NCBI RefSeq assembly: GCF_028010285.1 | Contig: NZ_CP116304.1 | Location: 2,372,501-2,436,500 of the forward strand | Direction: 5' to 3' | From: Pseudomonas sp. Q1-7 | GTDB taxonomy: Bacteria > Pseudomonadota > Gammaproteobacteria > Pseudomonadales > Pseudomonadaceae | DNA: 64,000 nucleotides | Shown: in pieces, positions 15,214-27,886 of the stretch | Position numbering within the stretch: the stretch's first letter is position 1 | Layout of the letters: every line of letters begins with the position of its first letter | Program-made: the position numbers and the translations under genes | Notes under the pieces: generated by a model | The model's input: only the letters and a program-made list of their open reading frames with translations | Databases searched by the model: none | What the model was told of the DNA's origin: nothing

Positions 15214-15314
15214 TACCATCCCCCAAGGTCGGCTGGGGAATAGTCCATACTCCGACCTTGACCCATTCATCATGCGGCCCAGGGTTTCGGGGCCGCCTAT
15301 CGAAGAGACTGACC

Positions 15315-17972
15315 ATGCGCACCGAGCAACCGAAAGTCATCTACCTCAAGGACTATCAGGTCCCGGACTACCTGATCGACGAGACCAACCTGACCTTCGA
15401 GCTGTACGAGGACCACACCCTGGTCCACGCCCAACTGGTGATGCGCCGCAACCCCGAGGCCGGCGCCGGCCTGCCGCCCCTGGTGCTGGACGGCCAGCAA
15501 TTGGAGCTGCTGTCGATGTCCATGGACGACCGCGAGCTGGGCGCCACCGACTACCAGCTCACCGACAGCCACCTGACCCTGCAGCCCGTCGCCCAGGCAT
15601 TCACCCTCGACAGCACGGTGCGCATCCATCCGGAAACCAACACCGCGCTGGAAGGCCTGTACAAGTCCGGCAAGATGTTCTGCACCCAGTGCGAGGCCGA
15701 AGGCTTCCGCAAGATCACCTACTACCTTGACCGCCCGGACGTGATGAGCAGGTTCACCACCACCCTGAGCGCCGAACAGCATCGCTATCCGGTGCTGCTG
15801 TCCAACGGCAACCCGGTGGCCAGCGGGGCGGAAGAGGGCGGTCGGCACTGGGCGACCTGGGAAGACCCGTTCAAGAAGCCGGCCTACCTGTTCGCCCTGG
15901 TGGCCGGCGACCTCTGGTGCGTGGAAGACAGCTTCACCACCATGACCCAGCGCGACGTGGCGCTGCGTATCTACGTCGAGCCGGAGAACATCGACAAGGT
16001 CCAGCACGCCATGGACAGCCTGAAGAGGTCCATGCGCTGGGACGAGGAGGTCTACGGCCGCGAGTACGACCTGGACATCTTCATGATCGTGGCGGTCAAC
16101 GACTTCAACATGGGCGCCATGGAAAACAAGGGGCTCAACATCTTCAACTCCAGCTGCGTGCTGGCCAAGGCCGAGACCGCCACCGACGCCGCCCACCAGC
16201 GGGTCGAGGCGGTGGTGGCCCACGAGTACTTCCACAACTGGTCGGGCAACCGCGTGACCTGCCGTGACTGGTTCCAGCTCTCGCTCAAGGAAGGTTTCAC
16301 CGTCTTCCGCGACGCCGAGTTCTCCGCCGACATGAACTCGCGCACCGTCAAGCGCATCGAGGATGTGGCCTTCCTGCGCACCAATCAGTTCGCCGAGGAT
16401 GCCGGCCCCATGGCCCACCCGGTGCGCCCCGACTCCTTCATGGAGATCTCCAACTTCTACACCCTGACCGTCTACGAGAAGGGCTCGGAAGTGGTGCGGA
16501 TGATCCACACCCTGCTGGGCGCCGACGGCTTCCGCAAGGGCACCGATCTCTACTTCGAGCGCCATGACGGCCAGGCCGTGACCTGCGACGATTTCGTCAA
16601 GGCCATGGAGGATGCCAACGGCGTCGACCTGACCCAGTTCAAGCGCTGGTACAGCCAGGCCGGCACCCCGCGCCTGCAGGTTGAGGACCGCTACGACGCC
16701 TCGGCCAAAACCTACAGCCTGACCTTCCGCCAGAGCTGTCCGGCCACACCGGGGCAAAGCGACAAGCAGCCTTTCGTCATCCCGGTCGAATTGGGGCTGC
16801 TGGACGCCGCTGGCAACGACCTGCCGCTGCGTCTCGCGGGGGAAGCCGGGGCGCAGGGCAGTAATCGCGTACTGTCGGTCACCGAGGCCGAGCAGACCTT
16901 CACCTTCGTCGACATCGCGGAACGTCCGCTGCCGTCGCTGCTGCGCGGCTTCTCGGCGCCGGTGAAGCTGGCCTTCCCCTACAGCCGCGACCAGCTGATG
17001 TTCCTCATGCAGCACGACTCCGACGGCTTCAACCGCTGGGAAGCCGGCCAGCAGCTGTCGGTCCAGGTCCTGCAGGAGCTGATCGGCCAGCATCAGCGCG
17101 GCGAGGCACTGGTGCTGGACGCGCGCCTGATCGCGGCTTTCCGCACCCTGCTGGAAGACGAATCGCTGGACCAGGCCATGGTGGCGGAAATGCTGTCCCT
17201 GCCGAGCGAGGCCTACCTCACCGAGATCAGCGAGGTGGCCGACGTGGACGCCATCCACGCCGCCCGCGAGTTCGCCCGCCAGTCCATCGGCGAAGCGTTG
17301 TTCCAGCCGCTGCTGGCCCGCTACCAGGCCAACCGCGGGATTTCCCGCGACACCGGCTACAAGGCCGAGGCCGCACACATCGCCCGCCGCACCCTGCAGA
17401 ACATCGCCCTGTCCTACCTCATGCAGAGCGGCAAGGCCGAGGTGCTGGAGGCATGCCTGGAGCAGTTCAACGGTTGCGACAACATGACCGAGCGCCTGTC
17501 CGCGCTGGCGGTGCTGGTCAACTCCGGCTTCGAGCAGGAGAAGGCCGACGCCCTGGCACGCTTCGCCGACTACTTCAAGGACGACCCGCTGGTGATGGAC
17601 CAGTGGTTCAGCGTCCAGGCCGGCTGTGGCCTGCCGGGTGGCCTGGAACGTGTCCAGGCGCTGATGGCGCACCCGGCCTTCACGCTGAAGAACCCGAACA
17701 AGGTGCGTGCGCTGATCGGCGCCTTCGCCAACCAGAACCTGGTGAACTTCCACCGGGCCGATGGCGCCGGCTACCGCTTCCTGGCCGACCATGTGATCAC
17801 CCTGAACGCCCTCAACCCGCAGATCGCCTCCCGGCAGTTGGCGCCGCTCACCCGCTGGCGCAAGTACGACGCCTCCCGCCAGCAACTGATGCGGGCTGAA
17901 CTGGAGCGCATCCTCGCCTCCGGCGAACTTTCCAGCGACGTGTTCGAAGTGGTCAGCAAGAGCCTAGCCTGA
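15315..17972 (+). CDS. pepN: Aminopeptidase N
   Basis: 885-residue M1 zinc metallopeptidase, the expected length for Pseudomonas PepN; releases N-terminal residues in the cytoplasm. Substrate motif GAMEN at 267-271; zinc site H303-E304-x2-H307 with E326 eighteen residues later. The C-terminal half is the helical DUF3458-type domain. I chose ATG 15315; an upstream in-frame start at 15258 lacks support. Two hairpins follow. Confidence 0.97.
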   Translation: MRTEQPKVIYLKDYQVPDYLIDETNLTFELYEDHTLVHAQLVMRRNPEAGAGLPPLVLDGQQLELLSMSMDDRELGATDYQLTDSHLTLQPVAQAFTLDSTVRIHPETNTALEGLYKSGKMFCTQCEAEGFRKITYYLDRPDVMSRFTTTLSAEQHRYPVLLSNGNPVASGAEEGGRHWATWEDPFKKPAYLFALVAGDLWCVEDSFTTMTQRDVALRIYVEPENIDKVQHAMDSLKRSMRWDEEVYGREYDLDIFMIVAVNDFNMGAMENKGLNIFNSSCVLAKAETATDAAHQRVEAVVAHEYFHNWSGNRVTCRDWFQLSLKEGFTVFRDAEFSADMNSRTVKRIEDVAFLRTNQFAEDAGPMAHPVRPDSFMEISNFYTLTVYEKGSEVVRMIHTLLGADGFRKGTDLYFERHDGQAVTCDDFVKAMEDANGVDLTQFKRWYSQAGTPRLQVEDRYDASAKTYSLTFRQSCPATPGQSDKQPFVIPVELGLLDAAGNDLPLRLAGEAGAQGSNRVLSVTEAEQTFTFVDIAERPLPSLLRGFSAPVKLAFPYSRDQLMFLMQHDSDGFNRWEAGQQLSVQVLQELIGQHQRGEALVLDARLIAAFRTLLEDESLDQAMVAEMLSLPSEAYLTEISEVADVDAIHAAREFARQSIGEALFQPLLARYQANRGISRDTGYKAEAAHIARRTLQNIALSYLMQSGKAEVLEACLEQFNGCDNMTERLSALAVLVNSGFEQEKADALARFADYFKDDPLVMDQWFSVQAGCGLPGGLERVQALMAHPAFTLKNPNKVRALIGAFANQNLVNFHRADGAGYRFLADHVITLNALNPQIASRQLAPLTRWRKYDASRQQLMRAELERILASGELSSDVFEVVSKSLA

Positions 17973-17981
17973 TCCCCCTCC

Positions 17982-18006
17982 GACGGCCCGCACTCAGCGG
18001 GCCGTC
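17982..18006 (+). terminator. GC-rich hairpin just after pepN
   Basis: Perfect 10-bp stem GACGGCCCGC / GCGGGCCGTC with loop ACTCA, 9 bp after the stop. No T tract follows, so it may protect the 3' end rather than terminate. Confidence 0.5.
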
Positions 18007-18032
18007 ATCCCCTTGAAATCCCGCCTTCATGA

Positions 18033-18066
18033 AGTGTTACTGGTTAGCTCCGGTAACACTTTTTTG
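18033..18066 (+). terminator. Intrinsic terminator after pepN
   Basis: Stem AGTGTTACTGG / CCGGTAACACT (one G-T wobble), loop TTAGCT, followed by a run of six T. A good rho-independent terminator separating pepN from the downstream transport locus. Confidence 0.85.
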
Positions 18067-18493
18067 TTACTCAAGGAAATACATGGCGCCTTCCTTATGT
18101 GGGAATCGTCTTAGAAGCCCAGAAAACGCTTGACCAGGCAGCTTTTGGTATGAACGTACATGCCCTGCAAGTGTGATCTTGAGTGACAAATCGTGCCAGA
18201 TCGTCCGACAAGATCGGACAGAAAATTTGAAATTGATCAGTGGATGATCAGTCACTTGTTTGACTGAATTCCGTCGCATGGGTCGTGAAATATTTCTGGC
18301 GGCCATCGACGAATTGGCACCATGGTTGCAATCCCGCTGGCGATTTAGCCCCGTTTCGGTGCATTCGGGACGGGGTGCGCTCTGCGCTGGGGATTTCCTG
18401 CCGAAGCAAGACAAGGCCGCCAGGCGGCTGGACAAACGAGCCCGCCCGACGGGCCGCCAATAACAAAGTGATCAGTCCACGGAGTAAGACTCG
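18067..18493 (+). promoter_or_regulatory. Control region of the DUF1302/DUF1329 operon with repeated TGATCAGT
   Basis: About 430 bp, more AT-rich than its surroundings, with no convincing gene. Three exact copies of TGATCAGT occur at 18234-18241, 18245-18252 and 18469-18476; the last is just before the start codon. An inverted repeat GTCCGA-CAAGA-TCGGAC lies at 18203-18219. Both are candidate operator sites. No promoter hexamers are convincing by eye. Confidence 0.45.
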
Positions 18494-20563
18494 ATGGAGC
18501 TCAAGTCTCGTAAGCCCATGTTGCGTTTCGCACCGGCCAAGGCAGGTTTCGCCTTTGCCGGTATCCTGCCGCTGCTGGTAGCCGCCCAGGCCCAGGCGGT
18601 GGAGTTCAGCTTCGCCAACGACGAAATTTCCGGTTCCCTTGATACCACCGTCTCGTACGGCCAGCTGTGGCGCGTCCAGGGTCGCGACAAGACCAACGAC
18701 GACATCAACACCAACGACGGCAACCGTAACTTCGATACTGGTCTGGTTTCCGAGGTCTACAAGATCACCTCCGACCTGGAAGCGACCTACAAGAACTACG
18801 GCATGTTCGTCCGTGGCACTGCGTTCTATGACACCCAGATCATGGACAAGCGCAATGACTACCTGGACAACAACAACCCGGCGCAGCCAAGCCAGAACTT
18901 CCCGAAGGATGACAGCTTCACTCACGAAACCCGCCACAAGGCCGGCCGTGATGCGCAGATCCTCGACGCCTACCTCTACGGCAACTGGGACGTGGCCGAC
19001 ATGCCGGTCTCCGGCCGTATCGGCAGACAGGTGTTCAACTGGGGCGAAGGCATCTTCTACCGTGGTGGCGTGAACACCACCAACCCGGTGGATGCCGCCA
19101 AGTTCCGCCTGCCGGGCTCCGAACTGAAGGAAGTGCTGGTGCCGGTGGAAGCCCTGAGCTTCAACCTCGGCCTGACCGAAAACCTGTCGATGGAAACCTT
19201 CTACCAGTGGAACTGGAAAGAATCGGCCATCGACCCGGTGGGCACCTACTACTCCGAAACCGACCTGTTCGCCGATGGCGGCAATACCGCCTATTCGACG
19301 CAACCGGCACTGCTGCCGCTGGCAGGAGCCTATTCCGCTCTTAGCGCCCAGGGGCTGGGCGGTCTGGCGGGTGGTCGCACCGTCGATGAAAACGGTGTGA
19401 TCAAGGTCGCGTCGATCCGTCCGGATATCAACGCCAAGAACGACGGCCAGTTCGGTGTGGCCTTCCGCTACATTGCCGAAGAGCTGAACTCCACCGAATT
19501 TGGCTTCTATTTCGTCAACTACCACGCCAAGGAGCCGACCATTCAGGCTGACCTTGGCAGCTACGCTGGCGCCACTCGGCAGCAAATCGCCCAGGGCGTC
19601 GTGACTGCCCAGACTATCCAGCAATTGATCCAGGGCGGCTTTAATCAGCAGCAAATCGCGCAGGTCGCCGCGGGTGGGACCACTGGGGTGCCAGCGTTCG
19701 ATGCAATCATTGGCGGCGCGCTTGCAAACATCCCGAACTTGGTTGCTGCTGGCTTGGCTGATCCAGCGTCCGAACTGTCCCAAGCTGCGAATGGCCTGGC
19801 AGTGATCGATGTAGCGAACCAAGTCAACGCCCGTCGTGAGTACGCCGAAGACATCCGCATGTACGGCTTCAGCTTCAACACCACCATCGGCGACGCGTCG
19901 GTGTTCGGTGAGCTGTCCTACCGTCCGAACCTGCCGATCGGCATCGCCACCACCAACGACCTGCTGGGCGACCTGCTGCTCCAGGCGCCGCAACTGGCGT
20001 CCGGAAGTGTCGTCAACATCGGCGGCCAGAGCGTGCAACTGGGCGACTCGATCCACAACTACGAGCGCGTAGAGGCCTACAATTCGTCCCTGGGCACCAT
20101 CTACAACTTCGGCCCGGCGCTGTCGTTCGACTCCCTGATCGGCGTGGCCGAGCTGGCGTCCGAGCACCTGCGCGGCAGTGACCTGCAATACACCGCGTTC
20201 AACGGCCAGAAGCGCTACTACTCCGGCCGTGGCAACAGCTCCTACGTCTCCGGCGGCGACCGCGACGACCAGGTCAACAAGAACGCCTACGGCTACACCC
20301 TGCTGCTTTCCGGTACCTGGAACGATGTCTACGCGGGCGTGAACCTCTCCCCCTTCGTCGTCTACAAGGACGACTTCGAGGGCAACTCCTACCAGACCGG
20401 CAACTTCATCGAGGGCCGCAAGGCTTACACCCTGGGTGTCAAGGCCAGCTACCTGAACGCTCTGGAAGCCGAGCTGCAGTACACCGAGTTCTACGGCGGC
20501 GGCCAGAACAACTCGGTACGCGACCGCGACAACATCGGTCTCAGCGTCAAGTACTCCTTCTAA
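18494..20563 (+). CDS. DUF1302 family outer-membrane beta-barrel protein
   Basis: 689 residues. A long signal peptide ends in AAQAQA before VEFSF (cleavage near residue 36). The mature part is Gly/Tyr/Asn-rich with alternating strands and finishes in VKYSF, the C-terminal aromatic signature of outer-membrane barrels. Residues ~356-437 are an Ala/Gln-rich stretch (QQIAQ repeated) with codon use unlike the rest. DUF1302 proteins are widespread in proteobacteria, usually next to DUF1329, and function is unknown. First gene of an apparent operon: the DUF1329 gene follows after 61 bp and a terminator comes after that. An RBS (GGAGTAAG) precedes ATG 18494. Confidence 0.88.
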   Translation: MELKSRKPMLRFAPAKAGFAFAGILPLLVAAQAQAVEFSFANDEISGSLDTTVSYGQLWRVQGRDKTNDDINTNDGNRNFDTGLVSEVYKITSDLEATYKNYGMFVRGTAFYDTQIMDKRNDYLDNNNPAQPSQNFPKDDSFTHETRHKAGRDAQILDAYLYGNWDVADMPVSGRIGRQVFNWGEGIFYRGGVNTTNPVDAAKFRLPGSELKEVLVPVEALSFNLGLTENLSMETFYQWNWKESAIDPVGTYYSETDLFADGGNTAYSTQPALLPLAGAYSALSAQGLGGLAGGRTVDENGVIKVASIRPDINAKNDGQFGVAFRYIAEELNSTEFGFYFVNYHAKEPTIQADLGSYAGATRQQIAQGVVTAQTIQQLIQGGFNQQQIAQVAAGGTTGVPAFDAIIGGALANIPNLVAAGLADPASELSQAANGLAVIDVANQVNARREYAEDIRMYGFSFNTTIGDASVFGELSYRPNLPIGIATTNDLLGDLLLQAPQLASGSVVNIGGQSVQLGDSIHNYERVEAYNSSLGTIYNFGPALSFDSLIGVAELASEHLRGSDLQYTAFNGQKRYYSGRGNSSYVSGGDRDDQVNKNAYGYTLLLSGTWNDVYAGVNLSPFVVYKDDFEGNSYQTGNFIEGRKAYTLGVKASYLNALEAELQYTEFYGGGQNNSVRDRDNIGLSVKYSF

Positions 20564-20624
20564 TACCGACAAGAACAAGACGGGCGCCCAGGCGCCCGAT
20601 ACGGACTCATCACGGAGAAAACCC

Positions 20625-21992
20625 ATGCTGAAAAAGCTTTCGCTGATTAGCGCCGCGGTTGCCCTGGCGCTCGCCGCTGGCAACGCCCTGGCGCAGGTTT
20701 CGGCCCAGGAAGCCGCCAAGCTCGGCGCCAGCCTGACCCCCTTCGGCGCCGAGAAGGCCGGCAACGCCGCTGGCACCATTCCCGCCTGGACTGGCGGCAT
20801 CACTCAGGTTCCGGCGGGCTACAAATCCGGCCAGCACCATCCGGACCCGTTCCCGGAAGACAAGCCGCTGTTCACCATCACCAAGGCCAACCTGGACCAG
20901 TACAAGGCCAACCTGACCCCGGGTCAGATCGCCCTGTTCAACGCCTACCCGAGCAGCTTCCAGATGCCGGTCTACCAGACCCGCCGCTCCGGCTCCGCGC
21001 CGCAGTGGGTGTATGACAACAGCATCAAGAACGCCACCTCCGCCAAGCTGCTGGATGGCGGCAACGGCTTTGCCGACGCCTACGGCAGCATCCCGTTCCC
21101 GATTCCGCAGAACGGTGTCGAGGCCCTGTGGAACCACATCACCCGCTATCGCGGTTCCTACATCGTGCGGCGTGCCTCGGAAGTGGCGGTGCAGCGCAAT
21201 GGCGACTACTCGCTGGTGACCTCGCAACAGGAAGCCCTGTTCAAGTACTACAACCCGAAAGGTTCGTACGCCGACCTGAACAACGTCCTGTTCTACTACC
21301 TGTCCTTCACCAAGAGCCCCGCCCGCCTGGCCGGTGGCGCGACCCTGGTCCACGAAACCCTCGACCAGGTGAAGGAACCGCGCCAAGCCTGGGGCTACAA
21401 CGCTGGCCAGCGTCGCGTGCGCCGTGCACCGAACCTCGCCTACGACACCCCGATCGCCGCCGCCGACGGCCTGCGTACCGCCGACGACACCGACATGTTC
21501 AACGGTGCCCCGGACCGCTATGACTGGAAACTGGTGGGCAAGAAGGAAATCTATATCCCGTACAACAACTACAAGGTTTCCAGTCCGGACATCAAATACA
21601 AGGACCTGCTGCAACCCGGCCACCTGAACCCGGCGGTCACGCGTAACGAGCTGCACCGTGTGTGGGTCGTGGAAGGCACCCTGAAGTCCGGCGCCCGCCA
21701 CATCTACTCCAAGCGCACCCTGTTCCTCGACGAGGACAGCTGGCAAGCCGCCGTGGTCGACCAGTACGACGGCCGTGGCGAGCTGTGGCGCGTATCGGTG
21801 GCCTACCTGAAGAACTACTACGACCTGCCGACCACCTGGTCCGCGCTGGACGTGTTCCACGACCTGCAGGCCCGCCGTTACCACGTGCAGAACCTGGACA
21901 ACGAAGAACCGACCACCATCGACTTCACCCAGGCCATTCCGGACGATGGCTACTTCAAGCCGTCCGCCCTGCGTCGTCGCGGTACCCGCTAA
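20625..21992 (+). CDS. DUF1329 family periplasmic protein (LolB-like fold)
   Basis: 455 residues with a clear signal peptide (MLKKLSLISAAVALALAAGNALA), so it is periplasmic or outer-membrane associated. Conserved DUF1329 features include IPAWTGGITQVPAGY at the mature start and a run of aromatic-rich strands. The family is related to the LolA/LolB lipoprotein-carrier fold, which suggests handling of a lipid or hydrophobic ligand; that is inference. Paired with the DUF1302 gene upstream and followed by an intrinsic terminator. Confidence 0.9.
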   Translation: MLKKLSLISAAVALALAAGNALAQVSAQEAAKLGASLTPFGAEKAGNAAGTIPAWTGGITQVPAGYKSGQHHPDPFPEDKPLFTITKANLDQYKANLTPGQIALFNAYPSSFQMPVYQTRRSGSAPQWVYDNSIKNATSAKLLDGGNGFADAYGSIPFPIPQNGVEALWNHITRYRGSYIVRRASEVAVQRNGDYSLVTSQQEALFKYYNPKGSYADLNNVLFYYLSFTKSPARLAGGATLVHETLDQVKEPRQAWGYNAGQRRVRRAPNLAYDTPIAAADGLRTADDTDMFNGAPDRYDWKLVGKKEIYIPYNNYKVSSPDIKYKDLLQPGHLNPAVTRNELHRVWVVEGTLKSGARHIYSKRTLFLDEDSWQAAVVDQYDGRGELWRVSVAYLKNYYDLPTTWSALDVFHDLQARRYHVQNLDNEEPTTIDFTQAIPDDGYFKPSALRRRGTR

Positions 21993-22005
21993 GCGACACC
22001 CGAAG

Positions 22006-22041
22006 GAAGAAGGCCGCTCTCGTAGCGGCCTTCTTCTTTTT
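22006..22041 (+). terminator. Intrinsic terminator after the DUF1329 gene
   Basis: Perfect 13-bp stem GAAGAAGGCCGCT / AGCGGCCTTCTTC, loop of 5 nt, then TTTTT. Ends the DUF1302-DUF1329 transcript. Confidence 0.9.
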
Positions 22042-22088
22042 GGGAGGAGCCGACTGAAGGCTGGACGAAGGGATGCCGCGCGGCTGAA

Positions 22089-22180
22089 GGTTGGTGCGGG
22101 CCACGCGGGTCCGGGCGAAGCGAGGCCCAATGTTTCACCGAAAATCCCGCCTGTTGGGCTTCGCAGGCTCAGCGCCAAGC
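22089..22180. repeat. Dispersed ~90-bp repeat, copy A
   Basis: Starts GGTTGGTGCGGGCC, contains GAAGCGAGGCCCAA and TTGGGCTTCGCAGGCTCAGCG. Same family as copies at 26001-26091 and (reverse orientation) 38493-38535. Imperfect dyad symmetry; this copy has lost its outer CGTAGG/CCTACG ends. Confidence 0.7.
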
Positions 22181-22350
22181 AGCGAAGGCGGAAGGGCCGA
22201 TACAAACGCTGAAGGCTAATCGAAGGAGCTTGTCCCGGCCTTGGTCCGAGCGAACCCGGTCCAACCTCCAGCCATGATCCTCGATCTAGGGCTCGTCGCT
22301 CACGGTTACAGAGCGCCACGGGTGATTAACAAAACATAACGTCCCGCCGA

Positions 22351-22380
22351 TTGTGCGCGCTTTCCAAAGCTGGCTAGGAT
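22351..22380 (+). promoter_or_regulatory. Candidate promoter for the YCF48-MMPL operon
   Basis: TTGTGC (22351-22356), an 18-bp spacer, TAGGAT (22375-22380), about 55 bp before the start codon. The rest of 22181-22435 shows nothing else recognisable. Confidence 0.35.
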
Positions 22381-22435
22381 TACTGCGCCTGCCTGCCCGG
22401 GACAGGTCCATCTATAACAAAAAGGGGAAAGGTGT

Positions 22436-23524
22436 ATGAGTGAGCCCGTCATGCGGCGCACCCCGTCCGGCCTCTCCGTGGAGAGCCTCCACAAGCCGAC
22501 GTTCCGCTTCCACTCGCCGCTGGCCAAAGCGCTCTCGCTGTTCAGTGTGCTCTCTGTCCTCGCTGTCGCCGCCGTGCCCATTACCGCATCCGCGCTGGCC
22601 GCCGACGCGCCGATCCTCTCCATCGAGTCGCCCAAGGCGGTAAGCAGCCTGCTGCTCGATGTCGCCCACGCCGGCAAGCGCCTGGTGGCCGTCGGCGACC
22701 GTGGGCACATCCTCTATTCCGATGACAACGGCAAATCCTGGACCCAGGCCAAGGTGCCGACCCGCCAGATGCTGACCGCTGTCTATTTCGTCGATGGCCA
22801 GAAAGGCTGGGCCGTCGGCCACGACGCGCAGATCCTCTCCAGTGAGGACGGCGGCGCTACCTGGACCGTGCAGTTCGAAGACCTGCAGCGCGAAGCGCCG
22901 CTGCTGGACGTCTGGTTCAAGGACGCCAGCACCGGTTTCGCCGTGGGGGCCTATGGCGCCCTGATGGCCACCCGTGACGGCGGCAAGAATTGGGAAGACG
23001 TCGGCGACCGCCTGGACAACGAAGACCAGTACCACCTCAACGCCATCGCCGCGGTGAAGGACTCCGGCCTGTTCGTGGTGGGCGAGGCGGGCAGCATGTT
23101 CCGCTCCTCCGACTGGGGCGAGACCTGGGAGCGCGTCGAAAGCCCCTACGAGGGTTCGCTGTTCGGCGTGCTCGGTGCCGCCGAGCCTGGTGTGGTGATC
23201 GCCTATGGCCTGCGCGGCCACCTGTTCCGCTCCGCGGATTTCGGCAGCAGTTGGGAGACCGTGCCGCTGCAGGCCGCCAGTGGCGAGCTGGAGTTCGGTC
23301 TGTCCGGCGGCGCGCTGCTGCCCGACGGCAGCCTGGTGGTGGTCGGCCATGGCGGCAGCGTGCTCAAGAGCACCGACAATGGCCGCAGCTTCGCGGTGGT
23401 GAACCGCAGTGATCGACTGTCACTGGCCAGCGTCATCGCCGATGAGAAGGGCAACCTGATCCTGGTGGGGCAGGGTGGTGTGCGCGTGGCGTCGCCGACC
23501 GGCGCCGAGCTGGGCCAACTATAA
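22436..23524 (+). CDS. YCF48/BNR-repeat beta-propeller protein, exported
   Basis: 362 residues. A hydrophobic segment (residues ~30-52) ends in ASALAADAP, a signal peptide with an unusually long basic N-region. The mature part is a propeller built of BNR/Asp-box repeats: DNGKSWTQ, DGGATWTV, DGGKNWED, DWGETWER, DFGSSWET, DNGRSFAV. This is the YCF48/HCF136 family, known as assembly factors in photosystem II; in proteobacteria it accompanies MMPL permeases. ATG 22436 has GGGGAAAGG upstream. The MMPL gene starts 18 bp after the stop. Confidence 0.85.
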   Translation: MSEPVMRRTPSGLSVESLHKPTFRFHSPLAKALSLFSVLSVLAVAAVPITASALAADAPILSIESPKAVSSLLLDVAHAGKRLVAVGDRGHILYSDDNGKSWTQAKVPTRQMLTAVYFVDGQKGWAVGHDAQILSSEDGGATWTVQFEDLQREAPLLDVWFKDASTGFAVGAYGALMATRDGGKNWEDVGDRLDNEDQYHLNAIAAVKDSGLFVVGEAGSMFRSSDWGETWERVESPYEGSLFGVLGAAEPGVVIAYGLRGHLFRSADFGSSWETVPLQAASGELEFGLSGGALLPDGSLVVVGHGGSVLKSTDNGRSFAVVNRSDRLSLASVIADEKGNLILVGQGGVRVASPTGAELGQL

Positions 23525-23542
23525 GAAAGGCGGAGAGTTTCG

Positions 23543-25918
23543 ATGACGACCCATCACCAGGACAAGGCGACCTTCCTGGAGCGCCTGATCTTCAACAACC
23601 GGCCGACAGTGATCATTCTCTGCCTGCTGACCACCGTCCTTCTCGCCTGGCAGGCGCTGCAGGTTCGGCCGTCCACCAGCTTCGAAAAGATGATCCCGCT
23701 CCATCATCCCTACATCCAGAAGATGATCGAGCACCGCAATGACCTGGCCAATCTGGGCAACACCGTGCGTATTTCGGTGGAAGCCAAGAACGGCGACATC
23801 TTCAACAAGGAGTACATGGAGACCCTGCGTCAGATCCACGACGAGGTCTTCTACATCTCCGGGGTTGATCGCTCCGGCCTGAAGTCCCTGTGGAGCCCCA
23901 GCGTGCGCTGGACCGAGGTGACCGAGGAAGGCTTCGCCGGCGGTGAAGTGATCCCGCAGACCTACGACGGTTCCGCCGCCAGCCTGGAAGAGCTGCGCAA
24001 CAACGTGCTCAAGTCCGGCCAGATCGGCCGCCTGGTGGCCAACAACTTCAAGTCCAGCATCATCGACGTGCCGTTGCTCGAGTCCTACCCGGACCCGAAC
24101 GACCAGGGCACGCTGCTGAAGCTCGACTACCGCCAGTTCTCCCATGAGCTGGAAGAGAAGATCCGCGACAAGTACCAGCAACAGAACCCCAACGTGAAGG
24201 TCCACATCGTCGGCTTCGCGAAGAAGGTGGGTGACCTGATCGATGGCCTGATCATGGTGGTGGGCTTCTTCGGCATCGCCTTCCTGGTCACCCTGGTGCT
24301 GCTCTACTGGTTCAGCTGGTGTATCCGCAGCACCATCTCGGTGCTCTGCACCACCCTGATTGCGGTGATCTGGCAGTTGGGCCTGATGCACCTGGCCGGG
24401 TTCGGCCTGGACCCCTATTCCATGCTGGTGCCCTTCCTGATCTTCGCCATCGGCATCTCCCACGGGGTGCAGAAGATCAACGGTATCGCCCTGCAATCCA
24501 GTGATTCCGACAACGCCCTGACAGCCGCGCGGCGTACCTTCCGCCAGCTGTTCCTGCCGGGCATGATCGCCATCCTGGTGGATGCGGTGGGCTTCATCAC
24601 CCTGCTGGTCATCGATATCGGCGTGATTCGCGAACTGGCCATCGGTGCCTCCATCGGCGTGGCCGTGATCGTCTTCACCAACCTGATCCTGCTGCCGGTG
24701 TCCATCTCCTACATCGGCATCAGCAAGCGGGCCATCGAGCGCAGCAAGCGCGACGCCCAGCGTGATCATCGCTTCTGGCGCCTGCTGTCCAACTTCGCTC
24801 ATCCGGTGGTGGCGCCCATCTCCGTGGTGATTGCCCTGATCGCCTTCGGTGGCGGCCTCTGGTACAGCCAGAACCTGAAGATCGGCGACCTCGACCAGGG
24901 GGCTCCGGAGCTGCGCCCGGACTCGCGCTACAACCAGGACAACAACTTCATCATCAACAACTACTCCACCAGCTCCGACGTACTGGTGGTCATGGTCAAG
25001 ACCGGCCCCGAGGGCTGCTCCACCCATGAGGCCCTGGCGCCGGTGGACGAGCTGATGTGGAAGATGGAGAACACCCCGGGCGTGCAGTCCGCGATCTCCA
25101 TGGTCACCGTCTCCAAGCAGGTGATCAAAGGGATGAACGAAGGCAACCTGAAGTGGGAAACCCTGTCCCGCAACCAGGACGTGCTGAACAACTCCATCAG
25201 CCGCGCCGAGGGCCTGTACAACTCCGACTGCTCCGTGGCGCCGGTGCTGGTGTTCCTCAATGACCACAAGGCCGAGACCCTGACCCGCGCCGTGAACGCG
25301 GTGAAGGAATTCGCCCAGCAGCACAACCGCGAAGGCCTGGAGTTCATCCTGGCGGCCGGTAACGCCGGTATCGAGGCCGCCACCAACCAGGTGATCGCCC
25401 AGGCGGAGCTGACCATCCTGATCCTGGTGTACATCTGTGTGGCGGTGATGTGCCTGATCACCTTCCGCTCCGTGGCGGCCACCCTGTGCATCGTGCTGCC
25501 GCTGATCCTCACCTCGGTGCTGGGCAACGCGCTGATGGCCTTCCTCGGCATTGGCGTGAAAGTGGCCACCCTGCCGGTGATCGCGCTGGGCGTGGGTATC
25601 GGCGTGGACTACGGCATCTACATCTACAGCCGCCTGGAGAGCTTCCTGCGTGCCGGCCTGCCGCTGCAGGAGGCCTACTACGAAACCCTGAAGTCCACCG
25701 GCAAGGCCGTGCTGTTCACGGGCCTGTGCCTGGCCATCGGCGTGGTCACTTGGATCTTCTCGGCCATCAAGTTCCAGGCCGACATGGGCCTGATGCTGAC
25801 CTTCATGCTCCTCTGGAACATGTTCGGTGCCCTGTGGCTGCTGCCGGCCCTGGCACGCTTCCTGATCAAGCCCGAGAAGCTGGCGGGCAAGGTCGGTGGT
25901 TCGCTGCTGGCTCACTGA
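23543..25918 (+). CDS. MMPL/RND-superfamily inner-membrane permease
   Basis: 791 residues with two repeated halves, each a transmembrane helix, a large periplasmic domain and a five-helix bundle. First helix FNNRPTVIILCLLTTVLLAW; the bundles contain VPFLIFAIGISHGVQ and LPVIALGVGIGVDYGIYIYS, where GVDYGIY is the RND/MMPL proton-relay-type motif. Family members export lipids or other hydrophobic molecules by proton motive force. Directly downstream of the YCF48 gene, with GGCGGAG as ribosome-binding site. No membrane-fusion protein or TolC gene is adjacent, unlike drug RND pumps. Confidence 0.9.
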   Translation: MTTHHQDKATFLERLIFNNRPTVIILCLLTTVLLAWQALQVRPSTSFEKMIPLHHPYIQKMIEHRNDLANLGNTVRISVEAKNGDIFNKEYMETLRQIHDEVFYISGVDRSGLKSLWSPSVRWTEVTEEGFAGGEVIPQTYDGSAASLEELRNNVLKSGQIGRLVANNFKSSIIDVPLLESYPDPNDQGTLLKLDYRQFSHELEEKIRDKYQQQNPNVKVHIVGFAKKVGDLIDGLIMVVGFFGIAFLVTLVLLYWFSWCIRSTISVLCTTLIAVIWQLGLMHLAGFGLDPYSMLVPFLIFAIGISHGVQKINGIALQSSDSDNALTAARRTFRQLFLPGMIAILVDAVGFITLLVIDIGVIRELAIGASIGVAVIVFTNLILLPVSISYIGISKRAIERSKRDAQRDHRFWRLLSNFAHPVVAPISVVIALIAFGGGLWYSQNLKIGDLDQGAPELRPDSRYNQDNNFIINNYSTSSDVLVVMVKTGPEGCSTHEALAPVDELMWKMENTPGVQSAISMVTVSKQVIKGMNEGNLKWETLSRNQDVLNNSISRAEGLYNSDCSVAPVLVFLNDHKAETLTRAVNAVKEFAQQHNREGLEFILAAGNAGIEAATNQVIAQAELTILILVYICVAVMCLITFRSVAATLCIVLPLILTSVLGNALMAFLGIGVKVATLPVIALGVGIGVDYGIYIYSRLESFLRAGLPLQEAYYETLKSTGKAVLFTGLCLAIGVVTWIFSAIKFQADMGLMLTFMLLWNMFGALWLLPALARFLIKPEKLAGKVGGSLLAH

Positions 25919-25936
25919 GCCCGGCAGCGGGACAAG

Positions 25937-25964
25937 AAACCGCGGCCCTGGCCGCGGTTTTTTT
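25937..25964 (+). terminator. Intrinsic terminator after the MMPL gene
   Basis: Stem AAACCGCGGCC / GGCCGCGGTTT with a 2-nt loop and a T run to 25964. Confidence 0.9.
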
Positions 25965-26000
25965 ATGGGCGTGATCTGGGGGCCTGGCCACCTCGGACTC

Positions 26001-26091
26001 CGTAGGTTGGTGCGGGCCACTCTGGTCCGAGCGCAGCGAGGCCCAACAACCCGCACATCGCTGGGCTTCGCAGGCTCAGCGCCAGCCTACG
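26001..26091. repeat. Dispersed ~90-bp repeat, copy B (most complete)
   Basis: Bounded by CGTAGGTTGG and CCAGCCTACG, a 9/10 inverted repeat, with inner GAGCGCAGCGAGGCCCAAC and TGGGCTTCGCAGGCTC. Lies in the ~320-bp gap between the MMPL and batD genes; the remaining gap (26092-26239) shows no other feature. Confidence 0.75.
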
Positions 26092-26239
26092 AAATGCCCT
26101 TGGCCCAGCCTTGCAGCCAGCTAGCGTCGCAGGCAGGGCCGGTGACTCATGCCACGCGCAATGGGCGTGGTTCCCCACGTTCAAATGAATTCGCTACCAC
26201 CGGGAAAGGCCCAGGATTAGCCCCCGGTCGCGGGGACGG

Positions 26240-27886
26240 CTATCGCGGATACAGCGGCGGTAGCTGGCCGGATTCGCCGGTCACCTGCTGCCGTTCGGCG
26301 GCCGGCAAGGCGCGGATGGCCTTCCACAGGTCCTCGCCCTGCCAGTGCTGGCCGATCTCGCTGTAGAGGGCGCCGTTCAGCCCATCCATGGCGTCGGACA
26401 GCGGCACGAAGCGCGCGGCCATGTCGGCGAGGGTCTCCGGTTGCTGGCGTGCCCAGTTGTCCAGGGCCTGGCGGGTGGCGTGCGGGTCGTTGGACTGGCA
26501 GGCGCGGCGCAGTTCGTCCAGCAGGGTGCGTGGGCTCGGCCCGGCCTGGGCGGTGGGCAGGACCGCCGGCAGACGGCGGGCGCGCCACCACAGGCCGAAC
26601 CCCAGCAGGGTGGTGCCGGCGAGCAGGGCGCAGGCGAGCTGCCAGGGCCAGAGCCGCGCCTGGGCCTGCGCATTGCCGACGGGGGCTTCGGCGGTCGGCG
26701 CCGGGCGGGCTTCCAGTTCGGGGTTGCTGGCGACTTCCAGGGTGCGCGCGGGAATCTCGCTGCGCTCCAGACGGTTCTCCCGCGTGTTCCACCAGGTCAC
26801 GACAACCGCCGGCAGCTCCAGGCGACCGCTGCTGGTGGGCACCAGCGCCTCGCGTTCCTCGCGGCTGCCGAGCAGGCCGCGCTCGTCGGTCTTGTTGCCC
26901 AACTGCGGTTGGTCGGGATAGCGCCGCAGTCCCTGGGCCTGGGTGGCCGGCAAGGGTGGAATCTGCGCGCTGGAGAGGCCTTCCACCGTCATCATCAGGC
27001 TGCGGGTCAGCGAGTCGCCGGTCTGTACGCCGGCGGGGTCGGGGCTCCAGGATTCGGTCAGGGTCAGGTTGCGCGCCGGCAGCCAGGGCGCGTCGGCCGG
27101 GTATTCGGCGGGCTTGGGTTTGACGTTGAGGGGGATGCGCGGCGAATTCACCCGCGTCAGCTTGCCGGGGCGCGGGCCGAAGGGCTGGTAGCCGGATTCG
27201 CTGCCGGGGTCGACCAGGGTGGCACTGAACACCTGCGGGGGAATCTCCAACACGCCGCTCTTCTGCGGGAAGAGCGCGTAGCGCACCTCGATCACGCCGT
27301 GGCGCACACCGTTGATTTCCTTTTCGTAGGTGCGTGGTTCGCCCAGCCGCTCGACGCGGGCGTCGTCCATCTGCAGCGGGCTGAGGCTGCTGTCGTCGTA
27401 AAGGGACACCGAGTGGTAGATGCGCAGGGTCAGCATGGCCTGAGCCTGCACGTAGACGCTTTCCTGGTCGAGGCTGGCGTCGATGAACACCGGCGCCAGG
27501 TGGCCGCCGGCTGGCTTGTCGGTCTTCTCGGCCTTCTGCACGTTGAGGGTGATGGGGGCGCTGTGCACGTCGCCCAGCTTCAGTGCGGGAATGGTGACGA
27601 AGCCGGCCTGCTTCGGCTGGAGGGTGATGATCCAGCGGGTGGCGCGGTCGTTCTTGCCGTTGAAGGTGCCGAGCTGGTTGATCTGACGGGTGCCGAGCAC
27701 TTCGAAGTCCTGGTTCAGCGGCGTCAGGTCGGGTTTGCCGAACAGCGTCGGATCGGAGGATTCGAGGGTCAGCTCGACGGTCTCGCCTTCGCTGAGGCGG
27801 GTGCGGTCGACGTTCGCAGTGAAGCCGGCGGCCTGGGCGGCCAGCGTCAGCAGGCTGAGGAGGAGGGCGCAGAGCGGGCGCGTCAT
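26240..27886 (-). CDS. batD: BatD-like oxygen-tolerance / stress protein
   Basis: 548 residues. Signal peptide (ALLLSLLTLAAQAAG), then Ig-like repeats rich in beta strands (TANVDRTRLSEGETVELTL), a transmembrane helix near residue 415 (LACALLAGTTLLGFGLWW) and a cytoplasmic tail. BatD proteins act with VWA proteins BatA/B and a MoxR ATPase in Bacteroides aerotolerance and other stress responses; the role in Pseudomonas is unproven. Start ATG 27886 overlaps the upstream stop by one base (TGATG) and has AGGAAG upstream. Last gene of the six-gene operon. Confidence 0.85.
   Translation of the reverse strand: MTRPLCALLLSLLTLAAQAAGFTANVDRTRLSEGETVELTLESSDPTLFGKPDLTPLNQDFEVLGTRQINQLGTFNGKNDRATRWIITLQPKQAGFVTIPALKLGDVHSAPITLNVQKAEKTDKPAGGHLAPVFIDASLDQESVYVQAQAMLTLRIYHSVSLYDDSSLSPLQMDDARVERLGEPRTYEKEINGVRHGVIEVRYALFPQKSGVLEIPPQVFSATLVDPGSESGYQPFGPRPGKLTRVNSPRIPLNVKPKPAEYPADAPWLPARNLTLTESWSPDPAGVQTGDSLTRSLMMTVEGLSSAQIPPLPATQAQGLRRYPDQPQLGNKTDERGLLGSREEREALVPTSSGRLELPAVVVTWWNTRENRLERSEIPARTLEVASNPELEARPAPTAEAPVGNAQAQARLWPWQLACALLAGTTLLGFGLWWRARRLPAVLPTAQAGPSPRTLLDELRRACQSNDPHATRQALDNWARQQPETLADMAARFVPLSDAMDGLNGALYSEIGQHWQGEDLWKAIRALPAAERQQVTGESGQLPPLYPR

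Follow-up and report, generated by a model that had tools for sequence, protein, structure and literature searches.

The window, a stretch of 64,000 nucleotides from Pseudomonas sp. Q1-7, contains four intact open reading frames that follow one another uninterrupted on one strand (+), with the gene of aminopeptidase N as their 5' neighbour. The genes and the hairpins that punctuate them are as follows:

15312..17972, + strand: pepN (aminopeptidase N; TIGR02414, 1355.7 bits), 5' neighbour of the cassette
18031-18062, + strand: terminator hairpin 3' of pepN, with T-run, also returned by the terminator scan
18494-20563, + strand: DUF1302, 689 aa (PF06980, E 3.1e-163)
20625-21992, + strand: DUF1329, 455 aa (PF07044, E 8.7e-164)
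about 22006-22042, + strand: terminator hairpin 3' of DUF1329 (MFE -33.2 kcal/mol, z -5.5; a value reached by 0 of 200 shuffles)
22436-23524, + strand: YCF48-like (BNR) propeller, 362 aa (PF14870, 95.6 bits, E 4.1e-27)
23543-25918, + strand: MMPL/HAE3-like RND pump, 791 aa (PF03176, E 2.8e-34)
about 25934-25965, + strand: terminator hairpin 3' of MMPL (z -2.5; 4 of 200 shuffles fold equally well)

All three hairpins carry T-runs, and the cassette is therefore probably expressed as two transcripts, DUF1302-DUF1329 and YCF48-MMPL, which are parted by the hairpin behind DUF1329. A terminator scan of the locus returned just the pepN hairpin of the three, and a scan of 17900-26300 found no sigma-70 consensus promoter. 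An earlier, sequence-only reading had described the four genes as standing together in two terminated transcripts, with no fusion protein or TolC partner, and that description held up; family-model searches with the four window proteins gave no match to a membrane-fusion or TolC family. The pepN gene is the genomic anchor of the core pump and lies outside the machine.

DUF1302 is presumably an exported outer-membrane barrel. The same placement is given in PMC6394551 and PMC10866462. DUF1329 would be an exported LolA-like carrier, with a score against LolA_like PF17131 of 30 bits, exactly at the gathering cut-off of 30. Searches of PDB sequences, both single-sequence and by profile, found no relative of DUF1302 or DUF1329, and AlphaFold models, with a mean pLDDT of 38.9 for DUF1302 (12-row alignment) and 35.1 for DUF1329 (14-row alignment), were too poor to judge folds by, FadL features of DUF1302 among them. 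The propeller, which is exported and is the partner of the pump, matches PDB chains of Ycf48 by profile (E 1e-27); as judged by family models it is YCF48-like (PF14870) and not the Ycf48 photosystem II assembly factor itself, with 91.2 bits against NF010237, below the cut-off of 326.

The pump passes the PF03176 gathering cut-off (119 vs 20.5 bits), and its score against the HAE3 model TIGR00921 (153.3 bits, E 7.2e-45, below the cut-off of 351.9) marks it, by sequence, as a relative of HAE3 but no member by the model's cut-off. HpnN, the hopanoid transporter, is like the window pump an RND protein of the broad HAE3 group, but the two are set apart by a score of 68.6 bits against TIGR03480, far under the cut-off of 751.85. 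The BstA model likewise gave a distant match with a score far under its cut-off, and structures of MmpL and HpnN were matched weakly by profile. The nearest relatives among the matches listed were the pumps of P. boanensis (94% identity) and P. resinovorans (93%), whose genomes are listed as Metapseudomonas. All 67 pumps from locus L131 onward have S306-H307 (predicted TM4) and D689-Y690 (predicted TM10), and 66 of the 67 keep C492 and C563. The pair of motifs is asymmetric, Ser-His in the first helix and Asp-Tyr in the second, whereas MMPL pumps elsewhere generally carry Asp-Tyr in each of the two.

That the four proteins form one machine had been proposed from the sequence, with a survey of genomes for co-occurrence as one way to check it. 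Such a survey was run on 140 gammaproteobacterial genomes, in which the families were found to co-occur. Full-length DUF1302 and DUF1329 are present in an identical set of 21 genomes, and the pump and propeller profiles matched 20 of these 21 and 0 of the 119 others. The thresholds, chosen after a gap in the scores was visible, were >300 bits for DUF1302, >150 bits for DUF1329 and E 1e-30 or better for the pump profile, and the best propeller match in positive genomes had E 1.2e-28 or better. Set aside were 19 of 40 genomes whose DUF1302 matches all fell below 300 bits, 41 of 62 whose DUF1329 matches all fell below 150 bits, and 6 of 26 with weak propeller matches only. The one exception, G123, holds the pair and no pump; its pair sits on a contig of 7.4 kb, in an assembly split into about 330 contigs. 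A chance assemblage was rejected, the grouping being far beyond chance.

Gene order pointed the same way. Among 61 fetched loci with 63 pumps, which were selected for holding a pump, YCF48 is the same-strand neighbour of every pump (63/63), all three partners are nearby for 54 of the 63, and the exact gene order of the window recurs in 49 of the 61 loci. Across 54 full cassettes the distances of the four proteins are positively correlated in all six pairings, with rho of 0.77 for YCF48-MMPL, 0.72 for DUF1302-MMPL and 0.71 for DUF1302-DUF1329, and the lowest value, 0.58, for DUF1329-MMPL. It is well supported, at the level of gene content and order, that the four families form one system.

The association has its departures. 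Of 99 Pseudomonadaceae genomes, 77 hold barrel and pump, 11 neither, 10 the barrel only and 1 the pump only, and in the genus coded g142 all 11 genomes sampled lacked both DUF1302 and the pump. Each of the 10 barrel-only genomes (L159-L168) has one DUF1302 with no DUF1329 adjoining, and a search for DUF1329 elsewhere in them at E 1e-40 gave 0 of 10; DUF1302 can therefore act without the machine. G205, which has the pump but no barrel, carries two DUF1329, so that in the 11 discordant genomes the carrier tracks the pump and not the barrel (the search for DUF1329 covered 17 of the 99 genomes). A further 5 of the 61 fetched loci (L157, L188, L189, L190 and L192) have DUF1302-YCF48-MMPL without a detected DUF1329. 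Near the lone DUF1302 of L159 there is an rsmC-like methyltransferase, as at the Q1-7 pair in L134, and the cassettes of L188 and L190 are followed by an acyl-CoA dehydrogenase.

The number of copies is uneven among the four families. The Q1-7 genome has 8 DUF1302, 9 DUF1329 and 4 YCF48-MMPL pairs, arranged as four complete cassettes, four barrel-carrier pairs that lack a nearby pump, and one carrier by itself. Across the 77 Pseudomonadaceae genomes with barrel and pump there are at least 437 barrels and at least 228 pumps, both counts being lower bounds, since scoring per genome covered up to 12 barrel and 10 pump candidates. By these minimum counts barrels exceed pumps in 59 of the 77 genomes, equal them in 16 and are fewer in 2, and 16 of the 28 one-pump genomes hold 2-8 barrels. 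Carriers can likewise be numerous beside a single pump, with 9 in G153, 8 each in G165 and G230, and 6 in G175.

Linkage to pepN was followed in the best 80 pump loci from other Pseudomonas, 56 of which have pepN in the fetched stretch. The barrel-carrier pair lies between pepN and YCF48 in 11 of these 56, and in the other 45 the pump stands without the pair, with a median gap of 467 bases. Twelve further loci of the 80, with more than 5.5 kb upstream, show neither pepN nor the pair, which brings the absence of the pair to 57 of the 68 loci with that much upstream sequence. Of 14 distant class-level loci, 2 (L146 in G005 and L153 in G109) have an M1 peptidase immediately upstream of a full cassette, which suggests that the arrangement in the window is old. 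The data suggest an ancestral arrangement from which many pseudomonads have lost the pair at this site and kept the pump.

Trees were built for carrier and pump. In the DUF1329 tree (58 rows; a quick method with midpoint root), all six orphan carriers included, five from Q1-7 and one from G131, fall on the core side of a split labelled 100*, together with the carriers of core (11), class-level (14) and some accessory (3) cassettes, and the remaining 24 accessory ones are found across the split; the 27 accessory carriers were hand-picked from fetched loci, with near-duplicates omitted. In the pump tree (57 rows, among them 30 accessory pumps hand-picked from fetched loci), the 13 core pumps form a single clade (100*), and many pseudomonads have kept the core pump. 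Several barrel-carrier pairs may share the core YCF48-MMPL pump. Within Q1-7, the nearest paralogue of the window pair (L138:6470-12506) has no pump and is flanked by a GH1 glycosidase and a 2-keto-3-deoxygalactonokinase.

The system has published relatives. AmeABCD of Castellaniella defragrans is composed of DUF1302, DUF1329, a COG4447 propeller and an HAE3-type RND protein (PMC6394551), and the window has both its family content (DUF1302, DUF1329, a YCF48/COG4447-like propeller and an MMPL-type pump) and its gene order, DUF1302-DUF1329-YCF48-MMPL. AmeABCD, too, is described with no TolC and no membrane-fusion protein (PMC6394551). The two differ in setting: AmeABCD is monoterpene-induced and part of a monoterpene island (PMC6394551), whereas the window cassette is linked to pepN, falls into two transcripts and belongs to a genome that encodes seven more barrels and eight more carriers. 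Deletion of AmeABCD lowered monoterpene tolerance and gave poorer growth on apolar, not oxygenated, monoterpenes (PMC6394551).

In P. putida, PP_0765, PP_0766, PP_2018 and PP_2019 have a common Tween-20 phenotype, co-fitness data and complex models with predicted contacts, and they were proposed to belong to a novel transport system (PMC10866462). These are the families of the window with pair and pump unlinked, unlike the window, where the pair adjoins the pump; by family and locus, PP_2018 and PP_2019 are putative orthologues of the window genes. Operons of the four genes lie in the AphR, AphS and AphT regulons (PMC6449761), and a benzene degrader has a 'nanopod' cluster with DUF1329, YCF48 and MMPL genes in which a porin-like protein replaces a named DUF1302 (PMC13101534). 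Both share the window's families but are linked to aromatic catabolism, as the window is not (PMC6449761, PMC13101534). A Delftia DUF1329 deletion impaired growth on phenanthrene, as cited in PMC13101534, and nanopod samples contain DUF1302 and DUF1329 proteins (PMC3110197). HpnN, in contrast, is described as operating without such partners (PMC6394551). Papers on PA3080 (PMC2714965, PMC12431658) were left aside, as PA3080 is not established as an orthologue, and literature searches on PP_2017/pepN and on steroid with YCF48 gave nothing of use and no papers, respectively.

The sequence-only reading was thus partly supported overall. It had called the locus uncharacterised, which overlooks the deletion mutant and proposed transport role of AmeABCD (PMC6394551) and the co-fitness data and complex models for the P. 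putida versions (PMC10866462). It had called the locus self-contained, which does not fit the many pseudomonads that keep the pump here without the pair, nor the many pairs without a local pump. A role in lipid export is neither shown nor favoured.

Neighbouring genes bear on cargo and direction. The orphan barrel-carrier pairs of Q1-7 adjoin an acyl-CoA ligase and MalT-type LuxR regulators, and among the extra copies as a whole the neighbours also include an AraC regulator with a serine hydrolase, a beta-lactamase-fold protein, and a sugar kinase paired with a GH1 glycosidase. An HlyD-type membrane-fusion gene (L136:15332-16288) lies just downstream of one accessory cassette. Genes called by codon score were scanned in several groups, with the first 25 families shown for each. 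Near accessory cassettes in Pseudomonadaceae (90 of 167 genes scanned), 9 of 90 were short-chain dehydrogenases, 4 acyl-CoA dehydrogenases and 3 XylR_N, and a far-gene control (90 of a 120-gene sample drawn from 190) had 2 of 90 short-chain dehydrogenases and 5 Rieske proteins; the excess of short-chain dehydrogenases is only a lean. None of these families appeared among the 25 of 52 families shown for the window control (28 other genes, out of 30 called). Near class-level cassettes (43 genes) there were one AMP-binding enzyme, one wax-ester synthase and two Lipase_bact_N matches, perhaps from one gene, and the neighbours shown were mostly housekeeping or regulatory rather than catabolic.

In G051 (L152:3558-7568), pump and AMP-binding acyl-CoA synthetase occupy one open frame of 1336 aa, with the synthetase behind the pump C-terminus after a short linker and then a methionine. 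No other of the 63 pumps has such a frame, which depends on a single draft assembly; the mostly open-access literature searched described no pump-synthetase fusion. The C-termini of RND proteins are cytoplasmic, and the fused enzyme would therefore be where a CoA ligase must sit. The neighbour genes and the G051 frame lean to the delivery of substrate to CoA ligases, and with this frame and the published Tween-20 phenotypes import is mildly favoured over export, although the single deletion study of a cassette of this kind was interpreted as export (PMC6394551).

The explanation we prefer, at about even chances, is a pepN-linked housekeeping relay of the AmeABCD type, in which the core pump serves several barrel-carrier pairs and the direction is more likely inward. 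The DUF1302 barrel would pass a hydrophobic compound through the outer membrane, the LolA-like DUF1329 carrier would ferry it over the periplasm and dock on the YCF48-MMPL pair, and the proton-driven pump would transfer it at the inner membrane. One core YCF48-MMPL pump would serve several interchangeable pairs, encoded elsewhere under regulators of their own, with exogenous hydrophobic growth substrates as cargo, and inward flux would bring fatty-acid-like or hydrocarbon substrates to cytoplasmic CoA ligases. Handover of a hydrophobe from a soluble carrier to a membrane protein of RND fold is familiar from NPC2-NPC1, which is an analogy only, the system being eukaryotic, handling sterol and having no outer membrane. 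A more specific form is tentative and less probable: a hub-and-spoke importer in which one housekeeping proton-driven YCF48-MMPL gate, with the invariant Ser-His of predicted TM4 set against the Asp-Tyr of TM10, would take hydrophobic nutrients inward from many interchangeable pairs and couple to acyl-CoA synthetases (vectorial acylation), in one lineage by covalent fusion. Co-occurrence, the copy excess, the 45 of 56 loci, the orphan clade, the ligase neighbours, the G051 frame and the Tween-20 data speak for the preferred relay. The AmeABCD export reading, a fusion in 1 of 63 pumps, the few catabolic class-level neighbours, lone DUF1302 in ten genomes, 5 of 61 loci without DUF1329 and a carrier-pump rho of 0.58 speak against it.

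Most RND pumps move cargo outward, and export or detoxification, as proposed for AmeABCD, is a possible reading, if a doubtful one, in which the pump would take toxic hydrophobes from the inner membrane, the carrier accept them and the barrel release them. The AmeABCD mutant was less tolerant of monoterpenes and showed more Nile Red in CCCP-treated cells, from which its authors infer export, but its Nile Red efflux was almost identical to that of the wild type (PMC6394551). The AphR/S/T authors propose a role in coping with toxic aromatics (PMC6449761), whereas the P. putida proteins are needed for growth on Tween-20 (PMC10866462), and the pump-synthetase frame and the CoA-ligase neighbour in Q1-7 better fit import. 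It is unlikely that the core copy exports or maintains an endogenous envelope lipid, as HpnN does for hopanoids, with accessory copies that drifted to other cargo. Such a role would suit the conservation of the core pump in many pseudomonads, the distant HpnN and BstA matches and the pepN linkage seen also in G005 and G109, but those scores are far under the cut-offs, the cassette has no lipid-synthesis genes, and barrel and pump are absent in all 11 g142 genomes, so that the machine is not generally needed. That the two transcripts are unrelated neighbours is very improbable: the terminator between them and their separation in many pseudomonads would fit, but co-occurrence, an order that recurs in many families and protein distances that rise together (rho 0.58-0.77) run counter to it.

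The window cassette is thus real and co-inherited, a kind of relay already partly characterised. In the mostly open-access literature searched, the idea that several pairs depend on a single pump did not appear as a general claim; this reading extends further than the published claims found and is testable. The transport of oils, hydrocarbons and fatty acids over the two membranes of pseudomonads is a poorly known field, in which the DUF1302 and DUF1329 families are still named 'unknown', and the copy-number and linkage data give it a sharp claim of one core pump and many barrel-carrier pairs. If true, a shared pump would give two large families a function and would be a single control point for the engineering of lipid-using laboratory strains.
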